Shown here in pieces: positions 44,125 through 63,356 of a DNA stretch of 64,000 nt (its first letter is position 1; the number at the start of each line of letters is the position of its first letter). The notes under the pieces are model-generated. The model ran no database searches. It was not told the DNA's origin and saw only the letters and a program-made list of their open reading frames with translations. Origin of the DNA: Microbispora corallina (GTDB taxonomy: Bacteria; Actinomycetota; Actinomycetes; Streptosporangiales; Streptosporangiaceae); NCBI RefSeq assembly GCF_016863035.1, contig NZ_BOOC01000011.1, positions 1 through 64,000 on the forward strand. Reading direction: 5' to 3'. Both the position numbers and the translations under genes were made by a program.

Positions 44125-44141
44125 CTCCCGCTCTCCGGGAG
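44125..44141. promoter_or_regulatory. 17-bp steroid-island inverted repeat, site 1
   Basis: CTCCCGCTCTCCGGGAG lies between the divergent acyl-CoA dehydrogenase genes, 60 and 48 bases from their starts. It shares CTCCCGCT and GGGAG with the sites before the hsaD, hsaE and hsaC units. Confidence 0.5.
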
Positions 44142-44162
44142 TGATCGGGCCTCTTTCCTTCC

Positions 44163-44176
44163 ACCAAGCGTTTGGT
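44163..44176. promoter_or_regulatory. KstR2-like palindrome
   Basis: ACCAAGCGTTTGGT matches the KstR2 pattern ANCAAGNNCTTGNT at all but one fixed position. It is 13 bases before the plus-strand acyl-CoA dehydrogenase start. TetR-family repressors of acyl-CoA metabolism bind such sites; the regulator gene is not in the window. Confidence 0.5.
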
Positions 44177-44189
44177 AGGGTCCCGGGGT

Positions 44190-45356
44190 GTGGAGCCGGA
44201 CGAGGCCTTCCGCGCCGAGGTGCGGGCGTGGCTGGAGGACAACCTGACCGGAGAGTTCGCGAACGCCCGCGGGCTCGGCGGGCCCGGCCGCGAGCACGAG
44301 GCGTTCGGCCTGAGGCTGGCGTGGGAGCGGCACATGGCCGCGGCCGGCTGGACCTGCGTCGGCTGGCCCGAGCGCCACGGAGGGCGCGGCGCGAGCGTGG
44401 AGCGGCAGGTGGCCTTCCACGAGGAGTACGCGCTCGCCGACGCCCCCGCCCGTGTCAACCACATCGGCGAGAACCTGCTCGGCCCGACGCTCATCGCGTA
44501 CGGCACGCGGGAGCAGCGGAGTCGGTTCCTGCCGGAGATCGCGGCCGTGCGGGAGCTGTGGTGCCAGGGGTACTCGGAGCCCGACGCCGGATCCGACCTG
44601 GCCGGCGTGCGGACCAGGGCCCGGCTCGACGGCGGCCGGTGGCGGATCGACGGGCAGAAGGTGTGGACCTCGCTCGCGCTGGAGGCCGACTGGTGCTTCG
44701 CGCTCTGCCGCACCGAGCCGGGCTCGGCCCGCAGCCGCGGCCTGTCGTTCCTGCTCGTGCCGATGCGGCAGGACGGGGTGGAGGTGCGGCCCATCACCCA
44801 GATCACCGGCACCTCGGAGTTCAACGAGGTGTTCTTCGACGGCGCGGTGACCGACGCCGCCAACATCGTGGGGGCCCCGGGCGACGGCTGGCGGATCGCG
44901 ACGGCCACCCTCGGCTTCGAGCGCGGGGTGGCGACGCTGGGCCAGCAGGTCGGGTTCCGCAGGGAGTTCGAGGGCGTGGTGCGGCTGGCCCGGCGGACCG
45001 GGGCCGTCGACGACCCGCTGCTGCGCGACCGGCTCGTCCGGGCGTGGATCGGCCTGCAGGTCCTCCGTCTGAACGCGGTCCGCACGATGGCCGGCGTCGC
45101 CGCGGGCGCGCCCGGGCCCGAGTCGTCCATATCCAAGATCTCGTGGGCCACCTGGCACCAGGAGCTGGGCGAGCTGGCCATGGACGTGCTGGGCGCGGCG
45201 GGCACGGTCGCCGAGGGCCCGCCGTACGAGCTGGGGGAGTGGCAGCGGCTCTTCCTGTTCTCCCGGGCGGACACCATCTACGCGGGTTCGAACGAGATCC
45301 AGCGGCAGATCATCGCCGAACGGGTGCTCGGGCTGCCGAGGGAGCCGCGCGGCTGA
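44190..45356 (+). CDS. acyl-CoA dehydrogenase (FadE-like)
   Basis: A 388-residue acyl-CoA dehydrogenase: FRAEVRAWLEDNLTGEF at the start, GYSEPDAGSDLAGVRTRARLDGGRWRIDGQKVWTSLALEADW (flavin and substrate contacts), ITGTSEFNEVFFDGAVTD, and a C-terminal ADTIYAGSNEIQRQIIAERVLGLPR. The arrangement resembles the larger subunit of mycobacterial FadE26/27-type heterotetramers used on steroid-CoA substrates. GTG 44190 is chosen since the frame upstream runs through the palindrome. It diverges from the other dehydrogenase, 125 bases apart, with two operator candidates between. Confidence 0.9.
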   Translation: MEPDEAFRAEVRAWLEDNLTGEFANARGLGGPGREHEAFGLRLAWERHMAAAGWTCVGWPERHGGRGASVERQVAFHEEYALADAPARVNHIGENLLGPTLIAYGTREQRSRFLPEIAAVRELWCQGYSEPDAGSDLAGVRTRARLDGGRWRIDGQKVWTSLALEADWCFALCRTEPGSARSRGLSFLLVPMRQDGVEVRPITQITGTSEFNEVFFDGAVTDAANIVGAPGDGWRIATATLGFERGVATLGQQVGFRREFEGVVRLARRTGAVDDPLLRDRLVRAWIGLQVLRLNAVRTMAGVAAGAPGPESSISKISWATWHQELGELAMDVLGAAGTVAEGPPYELGEWQRLFLFSRADTIYAGSNEIQRQIIAERVLGLPREPRG

Positions 45357-45423
45357 GAACCCCTGGAGCGAGACCGCGGGCGGCCCTTCCCGAAGACGGC
45401 TCCCGTTGTTAGATTCCAGAACG

Positions 45424-45441
45424 AGAATTGATTTCAATTCT
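45424..45441. promoter_or_regulatory. perfect 18-bp palindrome before the IclR gene
   Basis: AGAATTGATTTCAATTCT consists of eight-base arms around TT. It lies 14 bases upstream of the IclR start, where a bound dimer would block initiation, so autoregulation is likely. It differs from the 17-bp repeat of the catabolic units. Confidence 0.6.
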
Positions 45442-45455
45442 GGTGGGAGGGTGCG

Positions 45456-46346
45456 ATGGCCGCCGTCAGCCCGTCGCCGGAGCCGGCCGCCCCCGAGCGG
45501 GGCGACCTGCCGCCGTCCATGGTGGAGCGGATGACCCTGATCATGGACGCGTTCCCGGGCCGGTCGACCCGGCTCACGCTGGAGGACGTGGCCCGCCGCA
45601 CACACCTGCCGCGGTCGACGGCGCACCGGATCCTCGACCAGCTCGTCCGCCTGCGCTGGCTGGAGCACACGTCGTTCGGCTACAGCCTGGGACAGCGCGC
45701 GCTCGGCCTCGGGGGCCGCGACGGCGGGTACGGCGAGATCCGCGAGGCCGCCGCCCCCCTGCTGCACGGCCTGCAGATGCGCACCGGGATGGTCGTCCAC
45801 CTGGCCGTGCTCGACACGGCCGACGTCTTCTACCTCGACAAGGTGGGCGGGCGGTTCGCGCTGTCGGTGCCCTCGCGGGTGGGCGGCCGGGCGCCGGCCC
45901 ACTGCACCGCCCTCGGCAAGTCGATGCTCGCCTGGCTGGCGCCCGAGCGGGTGGACGCCCTGGTCGGCGGCTCGCTCAGCCGGCTCACCGACCGCACCAT
46001 CGGCGAGCTCGGCGTGCTCCACCAGGAGCTCGACCGCATCCGGCGGCGGCACGGGGTCGCGTACGAGCGGGGGGAGTGCTTCCCCGGCATCGCGTGCGTC
46101 GCGGCCGCGGTCCGCGGCAGGGAGGGGCCGGTGGCGAGCATCTCCCTCGTGGGCGACGCGCGGACGCCGCTGGAGCGGGTCGCGCCGCTTGTGGCCGACG
46201 CGGCGCGCCAGGTCGCGCTCGACCTGTTCCCCGACGCGGAGGGCGCCCGGCGCGCTCGGTTCGTGCGGCCGGTCCTGGACGGCGCCTGGTCGGCCGAGAC
46301 CATGAACCGGCTCCTCGCCGCCGGTCAGAACGGCGACTGGCTCTAG
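45456..46346 (+). CDS. IclR-family transcriptional regulator
   Basis: A 296-residue regulator with an N-terminal winged helix-turn-helix (ERMTLIMDAFPGRSTRLTLEDVARRTHLPRSTAHRILDQLVRLRWLEHTSFGYSLG) and an effector domain (about 95-270: MVVHLAVLDTADVFYLDKVGG, HCTALGKSMLAWL, ECFPGIACVAAAVRG). IclR proteins often control aromatic catabolic operons and sense ring-derived acids. It is the only one-component regulator inside the island, hence the best local candidate for the shared 17-bp site. It converges on hsaB. Confidence 0.92.
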   Translation: MAAVSPSPEPAAPERGDLPPSMVERMTLIMDAFPGRSTRLTLEDVARRTHLPRSTAHRILDQLVRLRWLEHTSFGYSLGQRALGLGGRDGGYGEIREAAAPLLHGLQMRTGMVVHLAVLDTADVFYLDKVGGRFALSVPSRVGGRAPAHCTALGKSMLAWLAPERVDALVGGSLSRLTDRTIGELGVLHQELDRIRRRHGVAYERGECFPGIACVAAAVRGREGPVASISLVGDARTPLERVAPLVADAARQVALDLFPDAEGARRARFVRPVLDGAWSAETMNRLLAAGQNGDWL

Positions 46347-46394
46347 CCCGGGCGCGGTCAGCCCCAGTGTCAGCCCCCACGGTGAGCGCCGGAG

Positions 46395-46958
46395 TCAGCC
46401 CCAGTGGTCGCCCCAGCCCCAGAGGCCGGCCGCCTGGGGCTCGCCGGGGTCCACGCCGAACCGCCCCCCGTAGAAGATCATCGGCCGTCGCTCGCCGTCG
46501 CCCGCCTCCAGCAGCACCACCCGGCCGACGACCACGTCGTGGTCCCCGGCGGGGTGCACGTCCTCGATCTCGGCGTGCACCCGCAGCAGCACGCCGCGCA
46601 GCGCGGGGACGCCCCACGGGGAGGGGTCCCACTCCAGCCCGTCGTACTTCCTGCCGGTGCTCGACCCGAACCGGGCGCACATCTCGACCTGGTCCTCGCC
46701 CAGCACGTTGACGCAGAACCGGCCCGACCTCCTGATCCTCGGCCAGGCGCGCCCGCCTCTGTCGGCGCAGAACAGCACGAGCGGAGGGTCGAGGGACACC
46801 GAGGCGAAGGCCTGGCAGGCGAACCCCACCGGCTCCCCGTCGTCGCTGCCGGTTACCACGGTCACCCCGCTGGCGAACAGCCCCATCGCCCGGCGGAACT
46901 CCGGCGGCCCCGGCGCGGCCGCCGGCCGGGCCGCCGTACGGACGGGATCGGCCGTCAT
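46395..46958 (-). CDS. hsaB: flavin reductase, HsaB-like
   Basis: A 187-residue flavin reductase of the HpaC/HsaB family: FRRAMGLFASGVTVVTGSDDGEPVGFACQAFASVSLDPPLVLFCADRGG, FCVNVLGEDQVEMCARFG and the terminal MIFYGGRFGVDP are diagnostic. It reduces FMN with NADH and hands it to the HsaA oxygenase, which hydroxylates 3-HSA. It diverges from hsaD across 249 bases that contain one 17-bp inverted repeat. The enzyme is shared, presumably, by the two HsaA-like oxygenases of this window. Confidence 0.88.
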   Translation of the reverse strand: MTADPVRTAARPAAAPGPPEFRRAMGLFASGVTVVTGSDDGEPVGFACQAFASVSLDPPLVLFCADRGGRAWPRIRRSGRFCVNVLGEDQVEMCARFGSSTGRKYDGLEWDPSPWGVPALRGVLLRVHAEIEDVHPAGDHDVVVGRVVLLEAGDGERRPMIFYGGRFGVDPGEPQAAGLWGWGDHWG

Positions 46959-47119
46959 GGGCTCACCTCACCTCGGCTCAGCTCGGCTCTGCGGGTCGCG
47001 CGGGCCCGGACGTCCGCGGGTCCCGCGACCGGCCTCCGACGCTAGGCGCCCCGCCGGCCGCCCGGCCCGCCCGGTCCCGTTGAGTGGGCCCCGGTGAGTG
47101 AGCCCCGTCGAGCGGACCC

Positions 47120-47136
47120 GTCCCGCTGATCGGGAG
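47120..47136. promoter_or_regulatory. 17-bp steroid-island inverted repeat, site 2
   Basis: GTCCCGCTGATCGGGAG contains TCCCG-N5-CGGGA. It lies 71 bases before hsaD and 161 bases before the divergent hsaB. TACGGT at 47165 is a possible -10 for hsaD. The rest of the 249-base gap shows only GC-rich sequence. Confidence 0.6.
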
Positions 47137-47207
47137 GCCGCCGCCGCCCGGCCCGCCGCTTGGCTACGGTCCGACGAGCCGGCACTCCTTCAGGACGGGG
47201 GCGGACG

Positions 47208-48077
47208 ATGACGACGCGGCCCACGCACGACTCGACGGCGCGCGAGCTCGCGACCGGCACGGGCGTGCTGCGCTACCACGAGGCGGGCGACGGCCCCCCG
47301 CTGCTGTTCCTGCACGGCTCCGGGCCCGGCGTCACCGGCTGGCGCAACTTCGGCGGCAACCTGCCTGCCTTCGCCGAGCACTTCCGCTGCCTGATCCTGG
47401 AGTTCCCCGGGTTCGGGGTGAGCGACCCGGTGGACGGCCACCCGATGGCCGCGGCCCCCGCCGCGGTGCTCCGCCTCCTCGACGGGCTCGGGCTCCACCA
47501 GGTCGACGTGGTCGGCAACTCGATGGGCGGCATCGTCGCCGCCCAGGTGGCGGCCGCCCATCCCGAGCGGATCCGGCGGCTGGTCACGGTGGGCGGGATC
47601 GGGGTCGGCCTCTTCAGCCCCTCGCCGGGCGAGGGGATCACCCTGCTGACGGAGTTCGCCGAACGGCCCAGCCGGGAGGCGCTCGTCCGGTGGCTCCACT
47701 CCATGGTGTACGACCCGGCCCTCGTCACCGAGGAGCTCGTAGAGGAGCGCTGGGCCCAGGCCACCGACGAGGCCGCCCTCGCGAGCGCCCGCAGGATGTA
47801 CGGCAGGGCCGCGGTCGCCGCCCGGGCCGCCGCCGCCGCGGCCTCCGACCGGCCGCCGTACTGGGCGACGCTGCACCGGATCCAGGCGCCGACGCTGATC
47901 ACGTGGGGCCGCGACGACCGGGTCAGCCCGCTCGACATGGCCATCGTGCCGATGCGCACGATCCCCGGCGCCGAGCTGCACGTGTTCCCCGACTGCGGGC
48001 ACTGGGTGATGATCGAGCAGAGGGCCGCCTGGGAGAGCGTCGTGCTCGCGTTCCTGACCAGGAAGGACCCGGCATGA
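47208..48077 (+). CDS. hsaD: 4,9-DSHA hydrolase (meta-cleavage product hydrolase)
   Basis: A 289-residue alpha/beta-hydrolase of the MCP hydrolase group. Ser105 is the nucleophile in VVGNSMGGIVAA, Asp lies in LITWGRDDRVSPLD and His in DCGHWVMIEQ; the oxyanion region is LHGSGPGVTGWRNF. HsaD cleaves 4,9-DSHA, the ring-opened product of HsaC, into DOHNAA (HIP) and 2-hydroxyhexa-2,4-dienoate. ATG 47208 follows AGGACGGGGGCGG. Its stop overlaps the kstD start (ATGA), making this the first gene of the hsaD-kstD-kshB unit. Confidence 0.93.
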   Translation: MTTRPTHDSTARELATGTGVLRYHEAGDGPPLLFLHGSGPGVTGWRNFGGNLPAFAEHFRCLILEFPGFGVSDPVDGHPMAAAPAAVLRLLDGLGLHQVDVVGNSMGGIVAAQVAAAHPERIRRLVTVGGIGVGLFSPSPGEGITLLTEFAERPSREALVRWLHSMVYDPALVTEELVEERWAQATDEAALASARRMYGRAAVAARAAAAAASDRPPYWATLHRIQAPTLITWGRDDRVSPLDMAIVPMRTIPGAELHVFPDCGHWVMIEQRAAWESVVLAFLTRKDPA

Positions 48078-49756
48078 CCGAGACCCCGTGGGACGAGGAG
48101 TTCGACTTCGTCGTGGTGGGAAGCGGGGGCGGCGGCATGGCGGCGGCGCTCACCGCCGCCGACGCGGGCCTCACGGCGGTCGTGCTGGAGAAGGGCAAGA
48201 GGTTCGGCGGCAGCACCGCCATCTCGGGGGGCGGGATCTGGATCCCCGGCAATCCGGCGCTGCGCGCGAGCGGGGTCCACGACGACCCGCGGGAGGTGCG
48301 GCGCTACCTCGACCTGATCACGGGTGGCCGGGTGCCCGCCGCGCGGCTCGACGCGTTCGTGGACAACGGCCCCGCCGCGATGGAGGTGCTGTGCCGCAGC
48401 AGGTGGATGCGCTTCCTCTGGACGAAGGGCTACCCCGACTACCATCCGGAGCTGGAGGGCGGCAGCCCGATGGGCCGCTCGATCGAGGCGGCGCCGTTCG
48501 ACACCCGGGCGCTGGGCCCGGACGAGCGCCACCAGCGCCCGAACGGCATGGCGGGCCCGCTGGGCCTGTGGATCACGGCGAAGGACTACCACGACCTGGC
48601 GATGGCCAGGCGCACCTGGCGGGGCCGCTGGGCCACGGTCGTGTCGGCGTGGCGGGTCTCGTCCAACCTCATCCGCCGACGCCACATGTCCACGGGCGGC
48701 CGGGCGCTGGTCGCGCGGCTGCGGATGGCGCTCAGGGACGCCGGCGTCCCCGTGTGGCTGCGCACCGCCATGACCGACCTCGTCCTCGACGACGGCGGCC
48801 GGGTCCGCGGCGTCGCCGCCGAGCGCGAGGGGCGGACGCTGCGGATCCGCGGCAGGCTCGGGGTGCTGCTCGCCACCGGGGGCTTCGACCACAACCCGGC
48901 GCTGCGGGCCGCCCACCTGCCGGAGGGCGGGCGGGCCGACTTCAGCATGGGCGCGCGGGAGAACACCGGCGACGGCATCCTCGCGGGCGAGCGGGCCGGC
49001 GCCGCCCTCGATCTGATGGACGACGCCTGGTGGATGCCCGCCGTCCGGCACCCGGCGGGGGCCACCATCCCGCTCGTGTCGGAGCGGTGCATCCCGCCGT
49101 CGATCATCGTGTCCGGGGACGGCAGGAGGTTCGCCAACGAGTCGTCGCCGTACGTGAACTTCGTGCACGACCAGCTCGCGGGCGGCCACGTGCCGGCCTG
49201 GGTCGTCATGGACGCCAAGGCGCGCGCCCGCTACCCCTTCGCGCGGCTCCTGCCCGGCGCGCCCGTGCCGGACGAGTTCTACGCCGCGGGGCTCGCCTTC
49301 CGCGCGGACACGCTGGCGGAGCTGGCCGCCCTGATCGGCGTCCCGCCGGCGGCGCTGGAGGAGACGGTCGAGCGGTTCAACGGCTTCGCCAGGGCCGGCC
49401 GCGACGAGGACTTCGGCCGGGGCGACAGCGCGTACGACCGCTACTACGGCGATCCCACGCTGCCGAACCCGAACCTCGACGTCATCGACCGCCCGCCGTT
49501 CCACGCCTTCCGGCTGGAGGTCGGCGACCTCGGCACCAAGGGAGGCCTCGTCTGCGACGAGCACAGCCGCGTCCTGCGCGCCGACGGCTCGGCCATCGAG
49601 GGACTGTACGCCACCGGGAACACCTCGGCCTCGGTCATGGGCAACGAGTACGCCGGTCCCGGCGCGACCATCGGGCCGTCCATCGTCTTCGGGTACGTCG
49701 CCGCCCGCCACGTGGCCGCGCGGGCCCGGGAGCGGGCCGCCGAGCGGCCGGCCTGA
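48074..49756 (+). CDS. kstD: 3-ketosteroid Delta1-dehydrogenase
   Basis: A 560-residue FAD dehydrogenase. The Rossmann motif is VVVGSGGGGMAAALTA (about 14-29) and the C-terminal active-site segment GNTSASVMGNEYAGPGATIGPSIVFGY carries the Tyr and the Gly four residues later that polarise the 3-keto group in KstD enzymes; another catalytic Tyr is probably in NESSPYVNFV. It introduces the 1,2-double bond into androstenedione-type steroids. It overlaps hsaD by four bases and is followed by kshB after 21 bases. Confidence 0.94.
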   Translation: MTETPWDEEFDFVVVGSGGGGMAAALTAADAGLTAVVLEKGKRFGGSTAISGGGIWIPGNPALRASGVHDDPREVRRYLDLITGGRVPAARLDAFVDNGPAAMEVLCRSRWMRFLWTKGYPDYHPELEGGSPMGRSIEAAPFDTRALGPDERHQRPNGMAGPLGLWITAKDYHDLAMARRTWRGRWATVVSAWRVSSNLIRRRHMSTGGRALVARLRMALRDAGVPVWLRTAMTDLVLDDGGRVRGVAAEREGRTLRIRGRLGVLLATGGFDHNPALRAAHLPEGGRADFSMGARENTGDGILAGERAGAALDLMDDAWWMPAVRHPAGATIPLVSERCIPPSIIVSGDGRRFANESSPYVNFVHDQLAGGHVPAWVVMDAKARARYPFARLLPGAPVPDEFYAAGLAFRADTLAELAALIGVPPAALEETVERFNGFARAGRDEDFGRGDSAYDRYYGDPTLPNPNLDVIDRPPFHAFRLEVGDLGTKGGLVCDEHSRVLRADGSAIEGLYATGNTSASVMGNEYAGPGATIGPSIVFGYVAARHVAARARERAAERPA

Positions 49757-49777
49757 CCGGCGTCCCGGGAGGCGGCC

Positions 49778-50806
49778 GTGCGGGGTCCGTACAAGGTGCG
49801 CGTCGCCGGCGTGGTCGCCGAGACGGCGGACGCCCGCTCGTTCGTGCTCGAACCCGCGGCCGGCGACCGGGAGGCGTTCCGCTACCGGCCCGGCCAGTTC
49901 CTCACCCTCCGGGTGCCCCTCGGCCCCGGCCTCGCGCGCTGCTACTCCCTCAGCAGCTCGCCGCACTGCGACGAGCCGTTGAAGGTGACGGTGAAGCGCG
50001 CGGGGCCCGGGTCGAGCTGGCTGTGCGACACCGTGGCGGAGGGAGACGTGCTGGAGGTCCTGCGGCCCGCGGGCGCCTTCACCCCGGGCTCGCTCGACGC
50101 GGACCTCCTGCTGCTCGCCGCGGGCAGCGGCATCACCCCGGTCATGTCGATCGTGAAGTCGTGCCTCGCGGCCGGGACGGGCTCACTGGTGCTCGTGTAC
50201 GCCAACCGCGACGAGCGCTCGGTCATCTTCCGCGACGAGCTGGCGGCCCTGGCCGGCCGGCACGGGGAGCGGCTGAGCGTGGTCCACTGGCTGGAGTCGG
50301 TGCAGGGGCTGCCGAGCGCGGCGGGCCTGACGGCGCTGGCCCGCCCGTACGCCGGCCGGGAGGCGTTCGTCTGCGGCCCCGAGCCGTTCATGGATGTGGC
50401 GACCGGGGTGCTCGCCGGGCTCGGCGCGCCGCGCGTGCGGCTGGAGCGGTTCACCACCCTGGAGGGCGACCCGTTCGCCGCGCCGCCCCACGAGGAGCCG
50501 GACAGTGAGCCGGACGGGGAGCCCGCCGGGGCGGCCGAGGTCGAGGTGGTGCTCGACGGCGAGACCACGACCCTGCCCTGGCCCAGGAACCGGCGTCTCC
50601 TCGACGTGCTCCTCGCGGCCGGGCTGGACGCGCCGTACTCCTGTCGCGAGGGCTCCTGCGCGGCGTGCGCCTGCGTGCTCGTCGAGGGCGAGGCGGCGAT
50701 GGAGCGCAACCAGGTGCTCGACCGGCGGGACGTGGCCGACGGCCTGCTGCTCGCCTGCCAGGCGCTCCCGGTCAGCGAGCGGGTCAGGGTCACCTACGAC
50801 GGCTGA
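49778..50806 (+). CDS. kshB: 3-ketosteroid 9alpha-monooxygenase reductase
   Basis: A 342-residue class IA oxygenase reductase: an FAD domain ([23 protein letters not shown], about 40-62), a pyridine-nucleotide domain ([27 protein letters not shown]) and a C-terminal plant-type [2Fe-2S] ferredoxin domain (about 250-342) with Cys ligands in [16 protein letters not shown] plus a distal Cys in LLACQALP. It passes electrons from NADH to KshA. An acidic linker ([11 protein letters not shown]) joins the domains. GTG 49778 follows GGGAGGCGG. The oxygenase kshA is 12 kb away on the other strand. Confidence 0.92.
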
Positions 50807-50825
50807 CCCCCGCCTCCGCGGACGG

Positions 50826-50842
50826 CTCCCACTCAGCGGGAG
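50826..50842. promoter_or_regulatory. 17-bp steroid-island inverted repeat, site 3
   Basis: CTCCCACTCAGCGGGAG has five-base perfect outer arms and lies 57 bases before hsaE, 19 bases after the kshB stop. It marks a separate promoter for the hsaE-G-F-A-like unit. Confidence 0.65.
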
Positions 50843-50899
50843 GCCCGGCGCGCGGGGCCGGGGCCACTGGGAGCGTGGAGCCGAGCGGAGGAGGTCCGG

Positions 50900-51697
50900 A
50901 TGCTGGAGGAGGCGCGGCGGGCGGCCGTGCTGGAGGAGGCGGCCGGCCGGCTGCGGGCCGCCGAGCGCGACCGCGCGCCGATCGAGCCGCTGACCGCGGC
51001 CGAGCCCGGCCTCGGCGCCGGCGAGGCGTACGAGATCCAGCTCATCAACATCCGGCGCCGCCTCGCCGCGGGCGCCCGGGTGCTCGGGCACAAGGTCGGC
51101 CTGTCGTCCCCCGTCATGCAGCGGATGATGGGCGTGGACGAGCCCGACTACGGCCACCTGCTCGACACGATGCTGCTGCGGGAGGACGTGCCCGTCCCGG
51201 CGGCGGCGTACTGCCATCCCCGCGTCGAGGTGGAGGTCGGCTACGTCCTCGGGGCGAGCCTGCCCGGCGAGGGCTGCACCGAGGCCGACGTGCTCGCCGC
51301 CACCGAGTACGTCGTGCCGAGCATCGAGCTGATCGACAGCCGGATCAGGGACTGGCGGATCGCCCTCGCCGACACGATCGCCGACAACGCGTCGTCGGCG
51401 GGTGTCGTCCTCGGCGCGGCCCGCGTGCGGCCGGACGCCCTCGACCTCGCCGGCATCGAGGCCGTCCTGCGCCGCAACGGCGAGGAGGCCGCGCGGGGGA
51501 ACACCAGCGCGGTGCTGGGGAACCCGACGACCGCGGTGGCCTGGCTCGCCGGGAAGGTGGCGGCGTTCGGCGTGAAGCTGGAGGCCGGGCACCTGATCCT
51601 CCCCGGGTCCTGCACCCGGGCCGTGGACGTCCGGCCGGGGGACGTCTTCCACGCCGAGTTCGCCGGGCTCGGCTCCGTGACCGCGCGATTCGAGTGA
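50900..51697 (+). CDS. hsaE: 2-hydroxyhexa-2,4-dienoate hydratase
   Basis: A 265-residue hydratase of the fumarylacetoacetase/2-keto-4-pentenoate hydratase fold: [50 protein letters not shown], metal ligands expected in [13 protein letters not shown] (Glu-x-Glu) and [14 protein letters not shown]. HsaE adds water to the C6 dienoate released by HsaD, giving 4-hydroxy-2-oxohexanoate. It starts a new unit behind a 17-bp repeat and is followed by hsaG after 11 bases. Confidence 0.93.
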
Positions 51698-51708
51698 GGG
51701 GACCACAG

Positions 51709-52608
51709 GTGGGCAAGGCGACCGCGGCCATCGTCGGCTCGGGGAACATCGGCACCGACCTGATGTGCAAGCTGCTGCGCTCCGACCTCGTCGAGCCGCG
51801 CTGGATGGCCGGGGCCGACCCGGAGAGCCCGGGACTCGCCCGGGCCGCGGCGGCCGGGCTGGCCGTCTCCGCCGGGGGCGCCGACTGGCTGCTCGGGCTG
51901 GACGAGCGTCCCGACATCGTCTTCGAGGCCACCTCGGCGCGGGTGCACCGGGAGAACGCGCCGCGCTACGCCGCGCTCGGCATCCGGGCCGTCGACCTCA
52001 CCCCGGCCGTGCTCGGGCCGCCGGTCGTGCCCGCGGTCAACCTCGGCGCCCACCTCGACGAGCCGAACGTCAGCCTCGTCAGCTGCGGCGGCCAGGCCAC
52101 GATCCCGATGGTGCACGCCGTCTCCCGGGTGACCGAGGTCGCGTACGCCGAGATCGTCGCCAGCGTCGCCTCGCCGTCGGCGGGCCCGGGGACGCGGGCC
52201 AACATCGACGAGTTCACCCTCACCACGAGCCGCGGCCTGGAGACGGTCGGCGGAGCGGGCCGGGGCAAGGCCATCATCATCCTCAACCCGGCGGAGCCGC
52301 CCATGATCATGCGGGACACCGTGTTCTGCTCGATCCCCGCGGACGCCGACCGGGCGGCGATCGCGGCCTCGATCAAGGAGGTGGCCGCCGCCGTCGCGGC
52401 GTACGTGCCGGGCTACCGGCTGCGCGCCGAGCCGCAGTTCGACGAGCCGTCGGCCGCGACCGGCGGCGCGGCCCGCGTGGCCGTGCTGCTGGAGGTCGAG
52501 GGGGCCGGCGACTTCCTGCCGCCGTACGCGGGCAACCTCGACATCATGACGGCCGCCGCCGCCCGGGTCGGGGAGGGCTTCGCCCGCCGCCTGCTCGCCG
52601 CCCGATGA
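51709..52608 (+). CDS. hsaG: acylating aldehyde dehydrogenase (propanal/acetaldehyde)
   Basis: A 299-residue acetaldehyde dehydrogenase of the BphJ/DmpF/HsaG family. The NAD-binding [16 protein letters not shown] (8-23) and the catalytic Cys126 in [15 protein letters not shown] are clear. It oxidises propanal, channelled from the aldolase HsaF, to propionyl-CoA. GTG 51709 has AGGGG upstream. It precedes hsaF with overlap or a 14-base gap depending on the hsaF start, matching the HsaF-HsaG complex known from Mycobacterium. Confidence 0.94.
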
Positions 52609-52622
52609 CAGGAGACCCACCC

Positions 52623-53642
52623 ATGCCCCACAGCGCCGGCCTCGACGTACGGGTCACCGACTCCTCCCTGCGGGACGGGTCGCACGCCAAGCGGCACCGC
52701 TTCACCGCCGAGGACGTGCGGGCCGTCGTCGCCGCCCTCGACGACGCCGGCGTCCCCGTCGTCGAGGTCGCCCACGGCGACGGGCTCGGCGGCTCGTCGT
52801 TCACGTACGGCTTCAGCCACACACCCGAGCAGACCCTCATCAGGACGGCCGTCGAGACCGCGAAGCGGGCGAGGATCGCCTTCCTCATGCTCCCCGGCGT
52901 CGGCGTCCGGGACGACATCCGGGAGGCCGCAGGCAACGGCGCGTCCGTCTGCCGGATCGCCACCCACTGCACCGAGGCGGACATCGCGGTCCAGCACTTC
53001 GGACTGGCCCGGGACCTCGGCCTGGAGACCGTCGGGTTCCTCATGATGGCCCACAGCAGCCCGCCCGAGGCCCTCGCCCGGCAGGCCCGGATCATGGCCG
53101 ACGCCGGCTGCCAGTGCGTGTACGTCGTCGACTCGGCGGGTGCGCTCGTCATGGACCAGGTCGGCGACCGGGTCGCCGCGCTCGTGGCCGAGCTCGGCGG
53201 CGACGCCCAGGTCGGCTTCCACGGCCACGAGAACCTCGGGCTCGGCGTGGCCAACTCCGTCATCGCGGTCCGGGCCGGCGCCCTGCAGATCGACGGCTCG
53301 ACCCGACGGTTCGGCGCGGGGGCGGGCAACACCCCCGTCGAGGCGTTCGCCGCGGTCGCCGACCGGCTCGGCATCCGCACCGGCATCGACGTCGTGAAGA
53401 TCATCGACGCCGCCGAGGACGTGGTCCGCCCGATCATGGACGGCGAGTGCCTGCTCGACCGCATGGCCCTCACCATGGGCTACGCCGGCGTCTACTCCAG
53501 CTTCCTGCGGCACGCCGAGAGGCAGGCCGCCAGGTACGGCGTGTCCGGCGTCGAGATCCTCGTCGAGGCCGGGCGGCGCAAGCTCGTCGGCGGCCAGGAG
53601 GACCAGCTCATCGAGATCGCCGTCGAACTGGCGGGGAGGTGA
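52623..53642 (+). CDS. hsaF: 4-hydroxy-2-oxohexanoate/valerate aldolase
   Basis: A 339-residue class II aldolase of the HMG-CoA-lyase-like family: [17 protein letters not shown] (Arg17, metal-binding Asp18, His21), [18 protein letters not shown], and metal-binding histidines in [16 protein letters not shown]. It cleaves 4-hydroxy-2-oxohexanoate into pyruvate and propanal. ATG 52623 follows GGAGA and begins like known HsaF proteins; ATG 52605, which overlaps the hsaG stop, would add six residues. Confidence 0.94.
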
Positions 53643-53650
53643 CGGCGCCC

Positions 53651-54835
53651 ATGGCGCACGAGGTGCTCGACGCGATCGGCAGGCGGGCGGAGGAGATCCG
53701 GGCGCTCGGGCCGGTGAACGAGACGCTCGGCCGGCTCGACGACCAGGCGGCCAAGGTCCTGCGGGAGTCGGGGGCCGTCCGGCTGCTGCAGCCCGCGGCG
53801 TACGGCGGCTTCGAGGCCCACCCCCGGGAGTTCGCCGAGGCCGTCATGGCCCTGGCCGCCCTGGACGGCTCGACCGGGTGGGTCGCCGGCATCGTCGGGG
53901 TGCATCCGTGGGAGATGGCGTTCGCCGACCCCCGGGTCCGGGAGGAGGTCTGGGGCGGCAACCGGGACACGTGGGTCGCCTCGCCGTACGCGCCGATGGG
54001 CGTGGCCCGGCCGGTCGACGGCGGCTACGTGTTCACCGGCCGCTGGCAGTTCTCGTCCGGGACCGACCACTGCGACTGGATCTTCCTCGGCGGCCTGCTC
54101 GGCGACGCCGAGGGGCGGCCGGTCCAGCCGGCGACCTCCCTGCACCTGATCCTCCCGAGGTCCGACTACGAGATCGTGGAGGACTCCTGGGACGTGGTCG
54201 GCCTGCGCGGGACGGGCAGCAAGGACATCGCGGTGGCGGGGGCGTTCGTCCCCGGCTACCGGGTCATCCCGTTCGCGAAGGTCGCCGACGGGACGGCCGC
54301 GCGGGAGGCGGGGCTCACCAACCCGCTCTACCACGTGCCGTTCTCCTGCGCCTTCCCCCTCGGCATCACCGCGGCGGTCGTCGGCATCGCCGAGGGCGCC
54401 CTCGCGCACCACCTGGCCTACCAGCGCGACCGGGTGCAGATCACCGGCACCCGTGCCGCGGACGACCCGTACGCGCTGTACGCGATCAGCGAGGCGGCCG
54501 CCGAGATCGGCGCGGCGCGGGCGGCGCTGCTCGACAACGCCTGCCGCATGTACGACGCGGTGGCGGCCGGGCGGGAGGTCACGTTCGAGGAGCGGGCCGT
54601 GGGCCGCCGCACGCAGGTGCGGGCCGCCTGGCGGGCGGTCCGGGCCGTCGACGAGATCATGGCCCGGTCGGGGGGCAACGCGATGCGGTCCGCCAACCCC
54701 ATCCAGCGGTTCTGGCGGGACGCCCACATGGGGCTCGCGCACGCCATCCACGTGCCCGGCGCGGTGTTCCACATCGCCGCGTCCGCGCAGCTCGGGATGG
54801 ACCCGCCGCCCGGCGCCGGACGCGCCATGATCTGA
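53651..54835 (+). CDS. HsaA-like flavin-dependent monooxygenase (paralogue)
   Basis: A 394-residue acyl-CoA-dehydrogenase-fold oxygenase: LLQPAAYGGFEAHPREFAEAVMALAALDGSTGWVAGIVGVHPWEMAFAD, WQFSSGTDHCDWIFLGG, SWDVVGLRGTGSKDIAV and FWRDAHMGLAHAIHVPG, the same landmarks as 3-HSA hydroxylase HsaA and its HpaB/C2-like relatives. It uses reduced FMN from a partner reductase such as HsaB. The protein beginning at 63478 is a second member and by eye resembles classical HsaA more closely in its first 170 residues, so this copy may have another substrate. ATG 53651 lies nine bases after the hsaF stop. Confidence 0.88.
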   Translation: MAHEVLDAIGRRAEEIRALGPVNETLGRLDDQAAKVLRESGAVRLLQPAAYGGFEAHPREFAEAVMALAALDGSTGWVAGIVGVHPWEMAFADPRVREEVWGGNRDTWVASPYAPMGVARPVDGGYVFTGRWQFSSGTDHCDWIFLGGLLGDAEGRPVQPATSLHLILPRSDYEIVEDSWDVVGLRGTGSKDIAVAGAFVPGYRVIPFAKVADGTAAREAGLTNPLYHVPFSCAFPLGITAAVVGIAEGALAHHLAYQRDRVQITGTRAADDPYALYAISEAAAEIGAARAALLDNACRMYDAVAAGREVTFEERAVGRRTQVRAAWRAVRAVDEIMARSGGNAMRSANPIQRFWRDAHMGLAHAIHVPGAVFHIAASAQLGMDPPPGAGRAMI

Positions 54836-58487: not shown

Positions 58488-58610
58488 GACACGATGGTAC
58501 GAAACCCCCGCCCCTGTGACGCCGCCCGCTCACGCCGGGACGAGACGGGCGTCCCGCCGGAGCCGGCACCTTGACGAGGACGGGGGCGTCCCTCTGGGTC
58601 CGGTGCGGGA

Positions 58611-58627
58611 CTCTCACTGAGCGGGAG
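58611..58627. promoter_or_regulatory. 17-bp steroid-island inverted repeat, site 4
   Basis: CTCTCACTGAGCGGGAG differs from site 3 at two positions and lies 66 bases before hsaC, like site 3 followed directly by GCC. One arm has a single mismatch. Confidence 0.6.
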
Positions 58628-58693
58628 GCCGCGGGCGTCCGCCTCCGCGCCCGTGCGACCGTTCTCGGCGGGCGGAAGATGGGACGGACGACT

Positions 58694-59608
58694 GTGACGC
58701 AGATCCGCGGCCTCGGCTACCTGAAGATCCAGACGCGCGACCTCCCCCGCTGGCGCGACCTCGTCCTCGACGGGCTCGGGTTCGCCGAGGGATCGGGACC
58801 CGACCCGGACGGCCTCTACCTGCGCATGGACGAGCGACGGGCCCGGCTCGCCGTGCTGCCCGGCGACGCGGACCGGGTGCTCGCCGTGGGCTGGGAGGTC
58901 CGCGACCAGTTCGCCCTGGCCGCCGTGGGCCGTACGGTCGAGGCGTCGGGCACGCCGGTGAAGGTGCTGTCGGAGGCCGAGGCCGCCGAGCGCGACGCCG
59001 AGCAGGTCATCGCCTTCGCCGACCCCGCCGGCACCCCGGTCGAGGTCTTCTTCGGGCCCGTCCTCGACCACCGCCCGGTCCTGACCGGGAGGGGGCAGCG
59101 GTTCGTCACGGGCGTCCAGGGGATGGGCCACGTCGTCCTGCCCGCCCCCGCGATCGACGAGACCGTGGCCTTCTACACCGAGGTGCTGGGGTTCCTGCCG
59201 CGCGGCGCGTTCCGGCCCGCGGCCGGCCGGGGACGGGCGCCGCGCGTGCGCTTCCTCGGCGTGAACCGCCGCCACCACAGCCTGGCCGTCTGCCCGGCGC
59301 CCCGGGGCGGGGACCCGGGCCTGGTGCACCTGATGGTGGAGGTCGACACCCTCGACGCCGTGGGCATGGCCTACGACCGGGTCCGCGGCCTGGGGTTCTC
59401 CATCTCCTCGACGCTCGGACGGCACACCAACGACAAGATGGTCTCCTTCTACGTCCGCGCCCCCGGCGGCTGGGACATCGAGTACGGCACCGACGGCGCC
59501 CTCGTCGACGAGGCCTACTACACGGCCGAGGAGATCACGAGCGACAGCTACTGGGGTCACGACTGGTCCGGCTCCGAGCCGCTGGCCGCGTTCTCCCCGC
59601 GCCCGTGA
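58694..59608 (+). CDS. hsaC: 3,4-DHSA extradiol dioxygenase
   Basis: A 304-residue two-domain type I extradiol dioxygenase. Fe(II) ligands are His146 in GMGHVVLP, His212 in GLVHLMVEV and Glu263 in GWDIEYGTDG; the catalytic His195 lies in NRRHHSLAV. The first domain matches HsaC (IRGLGYLKI, LYLRMDERRARLAVLPGDADR). It opens ring A of 3,4-DHSA by meta-cleavage to 4,9-DSHA, the HsaD substrate. GTG 58694 gives the N-terminus seen in other HsaC proteins; ATG 58679 would add five residues. The stop overlaps the next GTG by four bases. Confidence 0.93.
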   Translation: MTQIRGLGYLKIQTRDLPRWRDLVLDGLGFAEGSGPDPDGLYLRMDERRARLAVLPGDADRVLAVGWEVRDQFALAAVGRTVEASGTPVKVLSEAEAAERDAEQVIAFADPAGTPVEVFFGPVLDHRPVLTGRGQRFVTGVQGMGHVVLPAPAIDETVAFYTEVLGFLPRGAFRPAAGRGRAPRVRFLGVNRRHHSLAVCPAPRGGDPGLVHLMVEVDTLDAVGMAYDRVRGLGFSISSTLGRHTNDKMVSFYVRAPGGWDIEYGTDGALVDEAYYTAEEITSDSYWGHDWSGSEPLAAFSPRP

Positions 59609-61089
59609 CCGCCGGCCCTCCCACCCTGCCTGACGTCCCCCCGGGCGAGCCGGTCGCGGCCCCCCGGCGGTTCGACCACGAGTGCGACGTGCTCGTCGTG
59701 GGCTTCGGATGCGCCGGCGCGGCGGCGGCGTACGAGGCGGCGGCCGCCGGAGCCCGCGTGATCGTGCTGGAGCGGGCGGACGCCCCCGGCGGCACCTCCG
59801 CGCTGTCCGGCGGCGAGATCTACCTCGGCGGCGGCACCCCCGTGCAGAAGGCGTGCGGCTTCGACGACACGCCGGGCGACATGTTCGCCTACCTGCGGGC
59901 CGCGCTCGGCCCGCACGCCGACGAGGAGAAGCTGCGCCTGTACTGCGACGGCAGCCTGGAGCACTTCCGCTGGCTGACCGACCGGGGGGTGACGTTCACC
60001 GAGCGGCTGTACGGCGAGCCCTGCTGGATGCCGCCGACCGGCGACGGCCTGATGTGGCTGGGGGAGAACGCCTGGCCGTACCGGACCCTCGCCCGCCCCG
60101 CGCCGCGCGGCCACCGCCCGCCCGCGCCGGGCTTCGCCGGGCGGCTGCTCATGGACGCCCTCGTGTCCGCCGCGACGTCGGCGGGCGCGGCCTGCCACAC
60201 CGGCACGAAGGCCGTGAACCTGGCGCTGGACGTCGGCGGGCGGGTGATCGGCGTCCTGGCCACCCGGTACGGCGAGCGCGTGGCCTACCGCGCCCGCCGC
60301 GGCGTCGTGCTCGCGACCGGCGGCTTCGCCGACTCCGACGAGATGCTGGAGCAGCACGCTCCCGCGCTGCTCGGTCACGCCCGGCTGACGTCGGGCGGCG
60401 ACGACGGCGGCGGCATCCGGATGGCGGCGGCCCTCGGGGCGGCCACCCGGCGCATGTCGTCCGTCGAGGTCGCGCTGGCCGTGGTGCCCGGCGTCGTCGT
60501 GCGCGGCATGCTGGTCAACGCCGCCGGCCAGCGGTTCCTCAACGAGGACGTGTACCCCGGCCTGCTGAGCTCCGCGGCCGTGCTGCGGCAGCCCGCGCCG
60601 CTGTGGGCGGTCGTGGACGAGGAGGGCTACGAGGCCGTGCCCGAGCCCGAGCGCTGGGGCGTCCGCCCCCGGCACATCGCCGGGACGGTCGCGGAGCTGG
60701 AGTCCGCGCTCGGCATGCCGGCGGGGGCGCTCGCCGCCACCGTCGAGCTGTACAACCGGCACGCCGCGGGTGGCGAGGACCCCCTCTTCCACAAGGACGC
60801 CCGGTGGCTCAGGCCGCTGGCGCCGCCGTTCGCCGCCCTGGACCCCCGGGACGGGTTCTGGTCGGCCGGCCGGGGGACCGGGGTGTCCGGCTTCACCCTG
60901 GGCGGGCTGCGCACCACCCCGGACGGCGCCGTCCTGCGCCATTCAGGACGGCCGATCGGCGGGCTGTACGCCGCGGGCCGGACCACGGCCGGGCTGCACG
61001 GCGAGGGGTACGTCAGCGGGACGTCGCTGGGCGACGGCACGTTCTTCGGCCGGAGAGCCGGCCGGGCGGCGGCAGTGGAGGGCCGATGA
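59605..61089 (+). CDS. KstD-like FAD-dependent steroid dehydrogenase (second copy)
   Basis: A 494-residue flavoprotein of the fumarate reductase/KstD group with FAD motif VLVVGFGCAGAAAAYEAAAAGARV (about 29-52), GGTSALSGGEIYLGGG, RGVVLATGGFADSDEM, and the C-terminal GLYAAGRTTAGLHGEGYVSGTSLGDGTFFGRRAGR. It is closer to the Rv0785-like branch than to the kstD at 48074, and lacks that enzyme's NEYAGPG motif, having GYVSGTS instead. It may act on another ring position (Delta4) or a different steroid. GTG 59605 overlaps the hsaC stop, so it is coupled to ring cleavage. Confidence 0.85.
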   Translation: MTAGPPTLPDVPPGEPVAAPRRFDHECDVLVVGFGCAGAAAAYEAAAAGARVIVLERADAPGGTSALSGGEIYLGGGTPVQKACGFDDTPGDMFAYLRAALGPHADEEKLRLYCDGSLEHFRWLTDRGVTFTERLYGEPCWMPPTGDGLMWLGENAWPYRTLARPAPRGHRPPAPGFAGRLLMDALVSAATSAGAACHTGTKAVNLALDVGGRVIGVLATRYGERVAYRARRGVVLATGGFADSDEMLEQHAPALLGHARLTSGGDDGGGIRMAAALGAATRRMSSVEVALAVVPGVVVRGMLVNAAGQRFLNEDVYPGLLSSAAVLRQPAPLWAVVDEEGYEAVPEPERWGVRPRHIAGTVAELESALGMPAGALAATVELYNRHAAGGEDPLFHKDARWLRPLAPPFAALDPRDGFWSAGRGTGVSGFTLGGLRTTPDGAVLRHSGRPIGGLYAAGRTTAGLHGEGYVSGTSLGDGTFFGRRAGRAAAVEGR

Positions 61090-61835
61090 ACCGTTTCGAG
61101 GACAAGCGGGCGCTGGTGACCGGCGCCGGGTCGGGCATCGGCCGGGCGACGGCGGCGCGGCTGGTGGCCGAGGGGGCCACGGTGTTCGCGGTGGACAAGG
61201 ACGAGGCCGGGCTGGCCGCCACCGGCGAGATCGTGGACGACCCCAAGCGCCTCCTCGCGCACGTGGCCGACCTGTCGTCGGAGGAGGGCGCGGCCGGGGC
61301 CGCGGCGGCCGCCGTCGCCGCGCTCGGCCGGATCGACGCCCTGGTCAACGTGGCGGGGTTCCTGCGGACCACCCCGGTCGCCACGCTCCGGCTCGACGAC
61401 TACCGCGACCTGCTCGCGGTCAACCTGTTCGCCCCCGTCACGCTGGTGCGCGAGCTGCTGCCGCACATCCCGGAGGGCACCGGGGTGATCGTGAACGTCA
61501 CCTCCACGGCCGCGACCCGGGCGCACCCCGGCATGACGGGCTACGCCGCGTCGAAGGGCGCCCTGCTGGCGTTCTCGATCAGCCTGGCCGCCGAGCTCGC
61601 GCCGCGCCGCATCCGGGTCGTCCCGGTCTCGCCCGGCGGCGTCGCGACGCCGCTCACCCGCGACAGGCAGACCTTCGCCGGCATCGACGTCCGGTGGTTC
61701 GCCCGCATCCACCCGCTGTGGGGCGCGCAGGGCAGGCCGGAGGACGTGGCCGGGGCGATCGCCTTCGCCGCCTCGTCCGACGGGGCGTACCTGAACGGCG
61801 TCGAGCTGCGCGTCGACGGGGGCTCGCACAGCTGA
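61086..61835 (+). CDS. SDR-family hydroxysteroid dehydrogenase-like protein
   Basis: A 249-residue classical SDR: TGAGSGIGRATAARL (cofactor), VDKDEA after strand 2 suggesting NAD, NVAGFL, catalytic Ser in NVTSTAATRAH, YxxxK in GYAASKGALLAF, and LNGVELRVDGGSHS at the end. Located in the hsaC unit with overlapping start (ATGA), it may interconvert a steroid hydroxyl and ketone, for example at C17 or C3. The position is not readable from sequence. Confidence 0.88.
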   Translation: MNRFEDKRALVTGAGSGIGRATAARLVAEGATVFAVDKDEAGLAATGEIVDDPKRLLAHVADLSSEEGAAGAAAAAVAALGRIDALVNVAGFLRTTPVATLRLDDYRDLLAVNLFAPVTLVRELLPHIPEGTGVIVNVTSTAATRAHPGMTGYAASKGALLAFSISLAAELAPRRIRVVPVSPGGVATPLTRDRQTFAGIDVRWFARIHPLWGAQGRPEDVAGAIAFAASSDGAYLNGVELRVDGGSHS

Positions 61836-61845
61836 CGCCGGCCCG

Positions 61846-62112
61846 TCAGGGGTCGGGGACGACGAGGGCGCCGTCGAGCGCCGCCCTCGTGATCGACGCG
61901 CGCAGGGCCTCGCAGCCGAGGAACAGCCCGCCGTCCTGGCCGCCGGGCGCCGCGCGGCGCTCGGCGCAGGCGGCCGCGGCGGCGGCGGTCCACTGCACGC
62001 TGGTCTGCTGCCAGCTCGCCTTGCGCGCCTCGACGCCCGCGCCGCACCGGTCGCAGCGCACCGGGCGCATGCCGGGACCGTCGGCCAGGCGGTCGTCCCT
62101 CCGGACCGTCAT
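61846..62112 (-). CDS. small Cys-containing protein coupled to kshA
   Basis: An 88-residue protein I do not recognise. It has a CxxC pair (Cys20, Cys23, in RCDRCGAG) and single cysteines at 49 and 67, which could form a zinc or iron site. WQQTSVQWTAAAAAACAERRA reads as an amphipathic helix, and the C-terminus is hydrophobic (GALVVPDP). ATG 62112 overlaps the kshA stop by four bases, so it is translated with kshA. A role in electron transfer to, or assembly of, the Rieske oxygenase is possible but unproven. Confidence 0.75.
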   Translation of the reverse strand: MTVRRDDRLADGPGMRPVRCDRCGAGVEARKASWQQTSVQWTAAAAAACAERRAAPGGQDGGLFLGCEALRASITRAALDGALVVPDP

Positions 62113-63266
62113 GCCGGCCGGCCCGCGGCCGCCCTGCGGGCGATGTTCGCCTCGACCTCGGCCTGCCACGCCTCGGTCGTCCGGGAGGTGTCCAGCTCGA
62201 ACTCGAACCGCTCCACCATCTCGGGCCGGACGTCCGCCACGTCGACGTAGAACTGCTCGTACCAGCGGCGCAGCTGGTAGACCGGGCCGTCCTCCTCGCA
62301 CAGCAGCGGGTTGTCGATGCGGGTCTTGCTCTTCCAGATCCGCACGTCCTGCTCGAAGCCCATCGCGATGAAGGCGGCGAGCTTGGTGGCCGTCTCGTCC
62401 GCCGCCGTGCCCTCCATGCCCTCCCCGCGCCGCACGATGATGCCGGACTGCAGCACGAACGAGTTCGCGTCGATCGGGTAGTGGCAGTTGATCAGCACGC
62501 ACTCGACGTCCATCGTGTCGTAGTGGTACGTCAGGTCGTCGATCATGAAGGACGGCCCGTGGTAGGAGGCGACGGACGAGTTGCCGGTCATGACCCGGCC
62601 GCCCTCCCCGGCCTTCGGCGGCCGGACGTCGGGCCGCCGCACGCCCTTCATCACCTGCGTCGCCACGTGCCCCTCGAAGATGTTCTTGAAGTACGTCGGG
62701 AACGAGTAGTGCACGTAGAAGAAGTGCGCCATGTCGACCACGTTGTCGATGACCTCGCGGCAGTTGGCGTGGACGACGGTCTCGCCCCACACCCAGTCGG
62801 TCCAGTCGTCGCGGGTGGCGCCCTCGATCCGGGGGATCGCGACCTCCGGCGGCGGCGGGTTGCCCTCGGGGTCGTTCCACACCAGGAGCAGGCCGTCCTG
62901 GTCGAGGGTCGTCCACGACGCCGTACGGGCCCGCAGCGGGACCCGGCGCGCGTACGGGATCCTCTTGCAGCGGCCGTCGCCGCCCCACCGCCAGTCGTGG
63001 AACGGGCAGGCGATCTCGTCGCCCTTGACCGTGCCCTCGGCGAGGTTGCCGCCCATGTGGCGGCAGTAGGCGTCGAGGACGTTGAGCCGGCCGTCGCCGC
63101 TCTCGAACACCACGAGCCGCTGCCCGAAGGCGTCCACCGCGTGCGGGCGGCCGTCCCGGAACCGCTCCGACAGCCCCAGGCAGTGCCACCCCCGGGCGAA
63201 CCGCGTGGGCGCCGCCTCCGCCCCGATGGCGCGGACTCCGCCGCGCTCCGCATCGACCGCAGTCAC
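62109..63266 (-). CDS. kshA: 3-ketosteroid 9alpha-monooxygenase oxygenase subunit (Rieske)
   Basis: A 385-residue Rieske non-haem oxygenase. The [2Fe-2S] ligands are Cys68, His70, Cys87 and His90 (CRH and CPFH); the mononuclear iron ligands are probably His181 and His186 in DMAHFFYVHYSFP. KshA signatures include ARGWHCLGLSERF at the start and TYFKNIFEGHVATQ. With KshB it hydroxylates C9 of ADD; the product opens ring B spontaneously to 3-HSA. GTG 63266 with AAGGGACGGG upstream gives the normal length. It diverges from the hsaA gene at 63478. Confidence 0.93.
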   Translation of the reverse strand: MTAVDAERGGVRAIGAEAAPTRFARGWHCLGLSERFRDGRPHAVDAFGQRLVVFESGDGRLNVLDAYCRHMGGNLAEGTVKGDEIACPFHDWRWGGDGRCKRIPYARRVPLRARTASWTTLDQDGLLLVWNDPEGNPPPPEVAIPRIEGATRDDWTDWVWGETVVHANCREVIDNVVDMAHFFYVHYSFPTYFKNIFEGHVATQVMKGVRRPDVRPPKAGEGGRVMTGNSSVASYHGPSFMIDDLTYHYDTMDVECVLINCHYPIDANSFVLQSGIIVRRGEGMEGTAADETATKLAAFIAMGFEQDVRIWKSKTRIDNPLLCEEDGPVYQLRRWYEQFYVDVADVRPEMVERFEFELDTSRTTEAWQAEVEANIARRAAAGRPA

Positions 63267-63339
63267 CTCGACCCGTCCCTTCGCAGGCGCGTTCCCTCCG
63301 GCGCAACGGTAGGCCGGTCGGTCCGGCCGGGGACCGCGA

Positions 63340-63356
63340 GTCCCGGTGGCCGGGAT
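63340..63356. promoter_or_regulatory. possible 17-bp steroid-island inverted repeat, site 5 (weak)
   Basis: GTCCCGGTGGCCGGGAT preserves TCCCG-N5-CGGGA as in site 2 but not the outer bases or centre. It lies 74 bases before kshA and 121 bases before hsaA in their shared promoter region, the expected place for the operator. The GC-rich motif alone is weak evidence. Confidence 0.35.

Follow-up and report, generated by a model that had tools for sequence, protein, structure and literature searches.

A conserved palindrome at steroid-degradation promoters of Microbispora corallina, a candidate operator of an IclR-family regulator

Described operators related to the palindrome

Steroid catabolism in actinobacteria has been described mainly in terms of TetR-family repressors. 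We analysed a 64,000-nucleotide stretch of DNA from Microbispora corallina (positions 1-64,000 of contig NZ_BOOC01000011.1, abbreviated C11, in a genome of 8.36 Mb; this whole stretch is the window below), in which a recurrent palindrome stands in front of steroid-degradation genes and may be the operator of an IclR-family regulator encoded among them (45456..46346, + strand). The palindrome is not wholly new to print. The nearly identical Lcin1 (TCCCGGTSACCGGGA; TCCCGGT[C/G]ACCGGGA), a 15-bp palindrome published in 2020 for Nocardioides simplex VKM Ac-2033D, sits in a bile-acid cluster, at the kshA orthologue and before hsaEGF, and was found by phylogenetic footprinting with homologous actinobacterial regions (PMC7593942). 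Its authors called for further research and tentatively named a KstR3 homologue, KR76_18060, as the regulator because it is induced by lithocholate; in the parts of that report drawn on here, neither IclR nor promoter spacing is mentioned (PMC7593942). Lcin1 differs from the hsa sites of M. corallina by one base per half-site (GGT/ACC versus GCT/AGC), and two sites of this genome, 68172 and 68209, are each one base off it. Exact copies of Lcin1 occur in relatives before casG, in 8/10 upstream regions; seven of these eight come from loci picked for exact matches, and the eighth (L149, Planotetraspora) does not.

The closest parallels on the protein side come from the IclR family. The operator of PobR (TTGTCCGATSATCGGACAR) has the same 17-bp layout and the same core, CCGnTSAnCGG, as the present sites and Lcin1 (PMC8222616). 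The outer bases differ, being TGTCC or GTTCG in the PobR, PcaU and PcaR operators (PMC8222616) and mostly CTCCC or GTCCC here, and those regulators serve aromatic-acid genes whereas the present sites lie at steroid genes; the proteins belong to the same family by hidden Markov model. Compared by eye with the IclR group 1 palindrome GKTYCRYW3-4RYGRAMC (as given in PMC8222616), the sites share the 17-bp layout but carry C rather than T at position 10 and have mixed outer bases. KstR, KstR2 and KstR3 likewise act on steroid catabolism (PMC10398937), but they are TetR-family proteins. SRTF2, from a steroid-responsive island of Pimelobacter simplex, is an IclR protein encoded beside a ketosteroid dehydrogenase gene and induced by steroid; the parts of that report drawn on here describe no binding site (PMC7062782). 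An iclR gene is also drawn within a Rhodococcus ruber steroid cluster (PMC6498646). Among the open-access papers listed, titles and opening abstracts assign no steroid operator to an IclR protein.

Sites, conservation and promoter spacing

The palindrome has the approximate consensus TCCC(G/A)(C/G)TSA(G/C)(C/T)GGGA. The first-pass annotation had reported five 17-mers, four of them 48-71 bases before gene units and a fifth between kshA and hsaA. All five read exactly as it gave them and all are intergenic, with measured site-to-start distances of 48, 71, 57 and 66 bp for sites 1-4, and of 74 bp to kshA and 121 bp to hsaA for the fifth. Genes were called from codon-position composition (GC-frame). 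The gene units are as it had named them, although several hsa, kst and ksh names carry the suffix '-like', which marks a family match below the curated cut-off.

The candidate operator before the hsaD-like, kstD-like and kshB-like genes (47208..50806, +) lies at 47120..47136 (+; GTCCCGCTGATCGGGAG), one mismatch from the refined core, and is followed by a -10-like TACGGT (47165..47170, +), a hexamer of the form NAnnnT at offset 29 from the site. This divergent region holds a further site (47074..47090, - strand; GTCCCGTTGAGTGGGCC), which faces the gene for an HsaB-like flavin reductase (46395..46886, - strand; NF045630, 1.8e-52, under cut-off) and has TAGCGT on the - strand at offset 30. The candidate operator at 50826..50842 (+; CTCCCACTCAGCGGGAG) has no mismatches and a GAGCGT at offset 29, and stands before the hsaE-like, hsaG, hsaF and hsaA-like genes (50900..54835, +); that at 58611..58627 (+; CTCTCACTGAGCGGGAG), with GACCGT at offset 30, stands before the hsaC-like, kstD2-like and SDR genes (58694..61835, +). 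A lone Lcin1-like site (63340..63356; GTCCCGGTGGCCGGGAT) lies between the divergent kshA-like gene (62109..63266, - strand; weak family matches only, the name having been given from position in the first-pass annotation) and hsaA (63478..63999 and on past the window to C11:64644, +; NF045629, 649 bits, above cut-off). It has CACCAT at 30 on the + strand and TACCGT at 29 on the - strand, so that one hexamer would serve hsaA and the other kshA.

The regulon is wider than first proposed, as further sites stand past the window before a TetR gene, casG and an SDR-fadE-fadE unit. The contig continues there with the TetR gene (C11:64739-65356; KstR3-like and KstR-like, closest solved sequence 3bjb), an SDR gene, casG (a steroid-24-oyl-CoA synthetase match of 872 bits, above cut-off) and then the SDR-fadE-fadE unit. 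The site at C11:68209, in the divergent promoter between casG and this unit, did not help to define the pattern.

Match counts alone say little about such a motif. In the window there are 8 matches at up to three mismatches against 2.59 expected, and one of 100 shuffles reached 8. The genome-wide scan suggested by the first-pass annotation, run with a mismatch pattern (CTCCCRCTNAGYGGGAG, at most two mismatches), gave 17 matches in 8.36 Mb versus 14 for the reversed control, and we rejected this count as proof of the motif. The part of the scan that speaks for the motif is its clustering: 5 of the 17 fall within about 24 kb of C11, four of which defined the pattern and the fifth of which (68209) is independent. 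Nine of the 12 matches outside the island fall within called genes; of the other three, two lie where genes converge and one precedes a gene. In three Microbispora genomes that lack IclR (L141-L143) the motif matches lie only inside genes. Since the match count by itself is weak, the weight is carried by clustering and conservation.

Conservation was measured in two samples of relatives' loci. The first held 40 stretches from 40 of the 61 IclR-bearing genomes of the family, with three (L061, L062 and L074) picked for motif matches; the second held 80 loci and partly overlapped the first in genomes. Because these loci were mostly obtained via the IclR protein, the fractions hold for IclR-bearing loci. 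Some genomes are present twice, and in the main and enlarged counts below identical upstream regions were counted once. In the first sample the site occurs at up to two mismatches in 15/18 hsaE and 13/20 hsaC upstreams (0.00 and 0.02 expected from composition-only shuffles) and at up to three in 25/34 hsaD upstreams (0.48 expected, likewise from composition-only shuffles). Our main count accepts both core variants at up to two mismatches over distinct upstreams and omits three loci that have the TetR gene only (L130-L132). It finds the site before hsaD in 86/88 cases, the HsaB-like flavin reductase gene in 84/93, hsaE in 28/30, hsaC in 28/48, the TetR gene in 16/18, kshA in 12/22, hsaA in 9/21, iclR in 22/95, hsaG in 4/18 and kshB in 1/9. 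The same count with 200 permuted palindromes gave means of at most 0.5, with single ones up to 12 (hsaC). The motif is thus conserved in front of orthologous hsa and ksh genes, a check that the first-pass annotation had put forward. An enlarged count includes L130-L132 and the motif-picked loci, among them eight (L250-L257) picked for exact Lcin1 matches and otherwise used only in the second-genus spacing test below; here the site precedes kshA in 21/30 upstreams, all 21 with the hexamer, and the TetR gene in 24/32. Among the 16 loci listed of the 80, sites occur in Geodermatophilus, Saccharopolyspora, Streptomyces, Nocardioides, Rhodococcus and others.

The palindrome is also held at a fixed distance from a -10-like hexamer. 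NAnnnT is most frequent 29 or 30 nt past the site, where it is present at 61% of hsaE (n=31), 77% of hsaC (n=30), 40% of hsaD (n=157) and 53% of kshA (n=15) sites, against a mean background of 2-4% across offsets. Among genes to which no such name was given, the maximum likewise falls at 30 (21%, n=133). The TetR promoter carries the palindrome with the peak at 33 (59%, n=17) and a spacing of 32 in this genome, versus 29-31 elsewhere, and iclR upstreams show no peak at this spacing. We defined an oriented pair as a core with up to three mismatches, NAnnnT at 29-32 and a gene start 45-200 nt on in the correct direction. The first 100 kb of C11 hold 13 such pairs, all within 40-76 kb and none in 1-40 or 76-100 kb, while permuted palindromes gave a mean of 0.5 and a maximum of 4; three of the 13 stand at doubtful sites (one at 44125, two at 72285), which leaves 10. 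Site 72285 precedes a FadD3-like gene and an SDR gene; it was left out of the regulon despite -10-like hexamers in both directions, with the site in 0/3 and 0/2 orthologous upstreams. The eight loci picked for exact Lcin1 near iclR, which come from a second genus (g105), show the spacing in 34 of 50 site-gene pairs, and in 0 of 7 pairs at the upstream of iclR itself. A TTGACA-type -35 at 16-19 nt is not conserved: none of 236 cases has 5 or 6 matches, and 29 have 4 matches versus 10 in shuffles. If the NAnnnT hexamer is the -10, the centre of the palindrome would lie near -50. Fixed spacing, a centre near -50 and the lack of a conserved -35 together describe the position that an activator needs.

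The protein behind the palindrome

We propose, with a probability of roughly 0.7, that the island's IclR protein uses the palindrome as its operator and activates steroid A/B-ring and side-chain genes. The product of 45456-46346 belongs to the IclR transcription factor family, with both the HTH_IclR (PF09339) and IclR_C (PF01614) domains above cut-offs; its top NCBIfam match is pcaR_pcaU, under that model's cut-off. It would bind the consensus palindrome just 5' of promoters whose -10-like hexamer follows 29-32 nt on and which have no conserved -35. Its effector may be a steroid or bile-acid breakdown product, and together with it the protein would activate ring A/B cleavage (kshA, kstD, hsaA-G), side-chain genes (casG and SDR-fadE-fadE) and the TetR gene. 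The palindrome also stands before iclR in some relatives, without fixed spacing, which suggests that the protein regulates its own gene.

The number of palindromes in a genome follows the presence of the IclR gene. Presence here is a match at E 1e-50, and 'lacking' means below that. Of the 297 family genomes, 61 carry the IclR gene and 57 carry the TetR gene. A 15-mer, TCYCRCTSAKCGGGA, has on average 4.16 matches in genomes with IclR (n=61) versus 1.19 in those without (n=236), where the reversed control gives 0.48 versus 0.40. The mean is 4.0 in IclR-only genomes (TetR below cut-off, n=7) and 1.0 in TetR-only genomes (n=3). Within Microbispora it is 3.5 with IclR (n=8) versus 1.29 without (n=7; p 0.003 by a Mann-Whitney test, which ignores relatedness). 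Exact Lcin1 occurs in 15/27 IclR-bearing genomes of the second genus versus 16/91 others, and 13 of the 25 Lcin1 sites in the IclR-bearing ones are no more than 25 kb from an iclR gene. One member of this genus has an IclR protein that shares 88% identity with its Nocardioides speluncae counterpart, and a class-wide search found the protein in 16/394 genomes.

The recognition residues are compatible with the motif. The protein reads PRSTAHR at positions 27-33 (numbering of PMC8222616, Table 5), a string found exactly in 119/130 called IclR homologues and as PRSTxHR in 128/130, with duplicate genomes retained in this count. In the rules given by PMC8222616, Arg28 goes with G/C at motif positions 8/24, His32 goes weakly with C at 10, and Arg33 is avoided where the motif length is even. 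Most sites of the palindrome carry G/C at 8/24; the motif has C at 10 and its length is odd, and by these rules it fits PRSTAHR.

Several observations weigh against this assignment. The residue rules were applied post hoc, with the motif already in hand. TCYCRCTSAKCGGGA was designed from the hsaE, hsaC and hsaD sites of IclR-bearing loci, so part of the copy-number trend follows hsa gene content, and the TetR-only genomes may be without the hsa genes whose promoters were counted. IclR, the KstR3-like TetR and hsa genes mostly co-occur, and the family genomes that separate the two regulators are few (7 and 3); one genome scored as lacking TetR (G206) encodes a 45% homologue of the protein. Even where IclR is missing, the mean is 1.19 matches versus 0.40 with the control pattern; 32 of these 236 genomes (G019 and others) have at least 3, which may mark a related regulator. 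Two IclR neighbourhoods (L069, L140) contain no site, a third (L133) has its sole site inside a gene, and a fourth (L078) has one site far from a called start. In the enlarged count only 30/106 iclR upstreams carry the site. Exact Lcin1 is absent from 12 of the 27 IclR-bearing genomes of the second genus, including G698, its sole genome with IclR and without TetR.

The palindrome could instead be the operator of the KstR3-like TetR protein, as tentatively printed for Lcin1 with its lithocholate-induced KstR3 homologue (PMC7593942). This TetR gene co-occurs with IclR, and its promoter often has its own site, as the counts above record. The TetR-only family loci L130-L132 lie in genomes with one match each and show no intergenic site at up to two mismatches; the TetR upstreams there are therefore also without one, versus 24/32 overall, which is a sharper observation than copy number. 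Further against a TetR operator stand the mean of 4.0 in the seven IclR-only genomes, the position of the site 29-32 nt 5' of the -10 rather than over the promoter, the resemblance of its core to IclR-family operators, and the lack of exact Lcin1 in three TetR-only genomes of the second genus (G653, G682 and G441; their hsa content lies outside that comparison). We consider assignment to the TetR protein improbable; as judged from sequence, the evidence favours IclR over the KstR3 homologue for Lcin1-type motifs. The first-pass annotation had suggested that the island's IclR protein perhaps coordinates ring degradation, and this protein remains the best candidate, given a copy number that follows iclR and a PobR-like core.

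It is unlikely that the IclR protein binds the palindrome as a repressor relieved by steroid intermediates. The family holds both repressors and activators (PMC8222616), but the fixed upstream position near -50 with no conserved -35 is what an activator requires. It is very improbable that the palindromes act at the RNA level, as transcription terminators or as hairpins of another kind. Site 50826 does begin 20 bp past the stop of the kshB-like gene; yet sites also stand in divergent promoters, which contain no gene end, at a fixed spacing from the -10-like hexamer, and a terminator scan of 44001-64000 returned nothing at 47120, 50826, 58611 or 63340, its one weak stem near a site (44134-44149) overlapping site 1.

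The fadE pair, KstR2 and the rest of the island

Site 1 of the first-pass annotation (44125..44141), between a divergent fadE pair, is doubtful. It has two mismatches and a -10-like TACCCT at 29 on the - strand, and at up to two mismatches the palindrome is found in 0/10 ipdE2-like and 0/11 fadE upstreams of relatives. With a KstR2-like sequence adjoining it, its membership of the regulon is unsupported and it is probably not part of a conserved promoter element. The idea of one shared steroid-regulon element thus holds for the conserved sites at 47120, 50826, 58611 and 63340 and fails for 44125.

The KstR operator consensus is TNNAACNNGTTNNA and that of KstR2 is ANCAAGNNCTTGNT. With the consensuses taken as these, the window has six KstR matches at up to one mismatch, none of them at sites 1-5, and a single KstR2 match at up to one mismatch, which lies by the fadE pair and not at sites 2-5. 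On this lack of a motif we rejected KstR and KstR2 as regulators of sites 2-5. The earlier statement that the palindrome is neither motif stands for these sites and needs amending at site 1, which the KstR2-like sequence ACCAAGCGTTTGGT (44163..44176, one mismatch) adjoins. The expected number at this threshold is 0.11, and a match turned up in 10 of 100 shuffles. Two-mismatch KstR2-like matches occur between the same two genes in Planotetraspora loci L073 and L075, and in intergenic positions at C11:74057, just before an enoyl-CoA hydratase gene, and C11:81470; they are weak when taken alone, since 100 kb holds 21 of them. A KstR2 homologue is encoded at C11:82340-82957 (4w1u, 5e-57), and together with the match at 44163 it suggests that the fadE pair may be under KstR2 control. 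Two regulators may thus share the island, with KstR2 taking the fadE pair; this pair, and perhaps ring C/D genes, would carry KstR2-like sequences instead of the palindrome.

The six KstR-like matches in the window compare with 1.38 expected, and no shuffle of 100 reaches six. Four of them are intergenic in the first 10 kb (3189, 4103, 9428 and 9437; one exact, two overlapping), where some genes are perhaps KstR-controlled. The steroid island also encodes a LuxR-type response regulator and a HisKA_3 histidine kinase (56689-58427, - strand) between the hsaA-like and hsaC units. A search of the genome for a second HsaC returned none besides the island copy.

We would give even odds to a broader proposition, in which steroid A/B-ring and bile-acid side-chain breakdown is switched mainly by an IclR activator rather than by a TetR repressor across many actinomycete genera, namely Microbispora, Actinomadura, Streptomyces, Saccharopolyspora, Geodermatophilus, Nocardioides and Rhodococcus. 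This activator would act from about -50 at promoters without a -35 and control the genes for itself and for a KstR3-like repressor, with rings C/D left to KstR2. The operator, its spacing to the -10 and the regulon are defined precisely enough for direct testing. If the proposition is true, the published regulator guess for Lcin1 needs revision, and an IclR activator in charge of A/B-ring and bile-acid breakdown across many genera would offer strain engineering and steroid biosensors a different handle.

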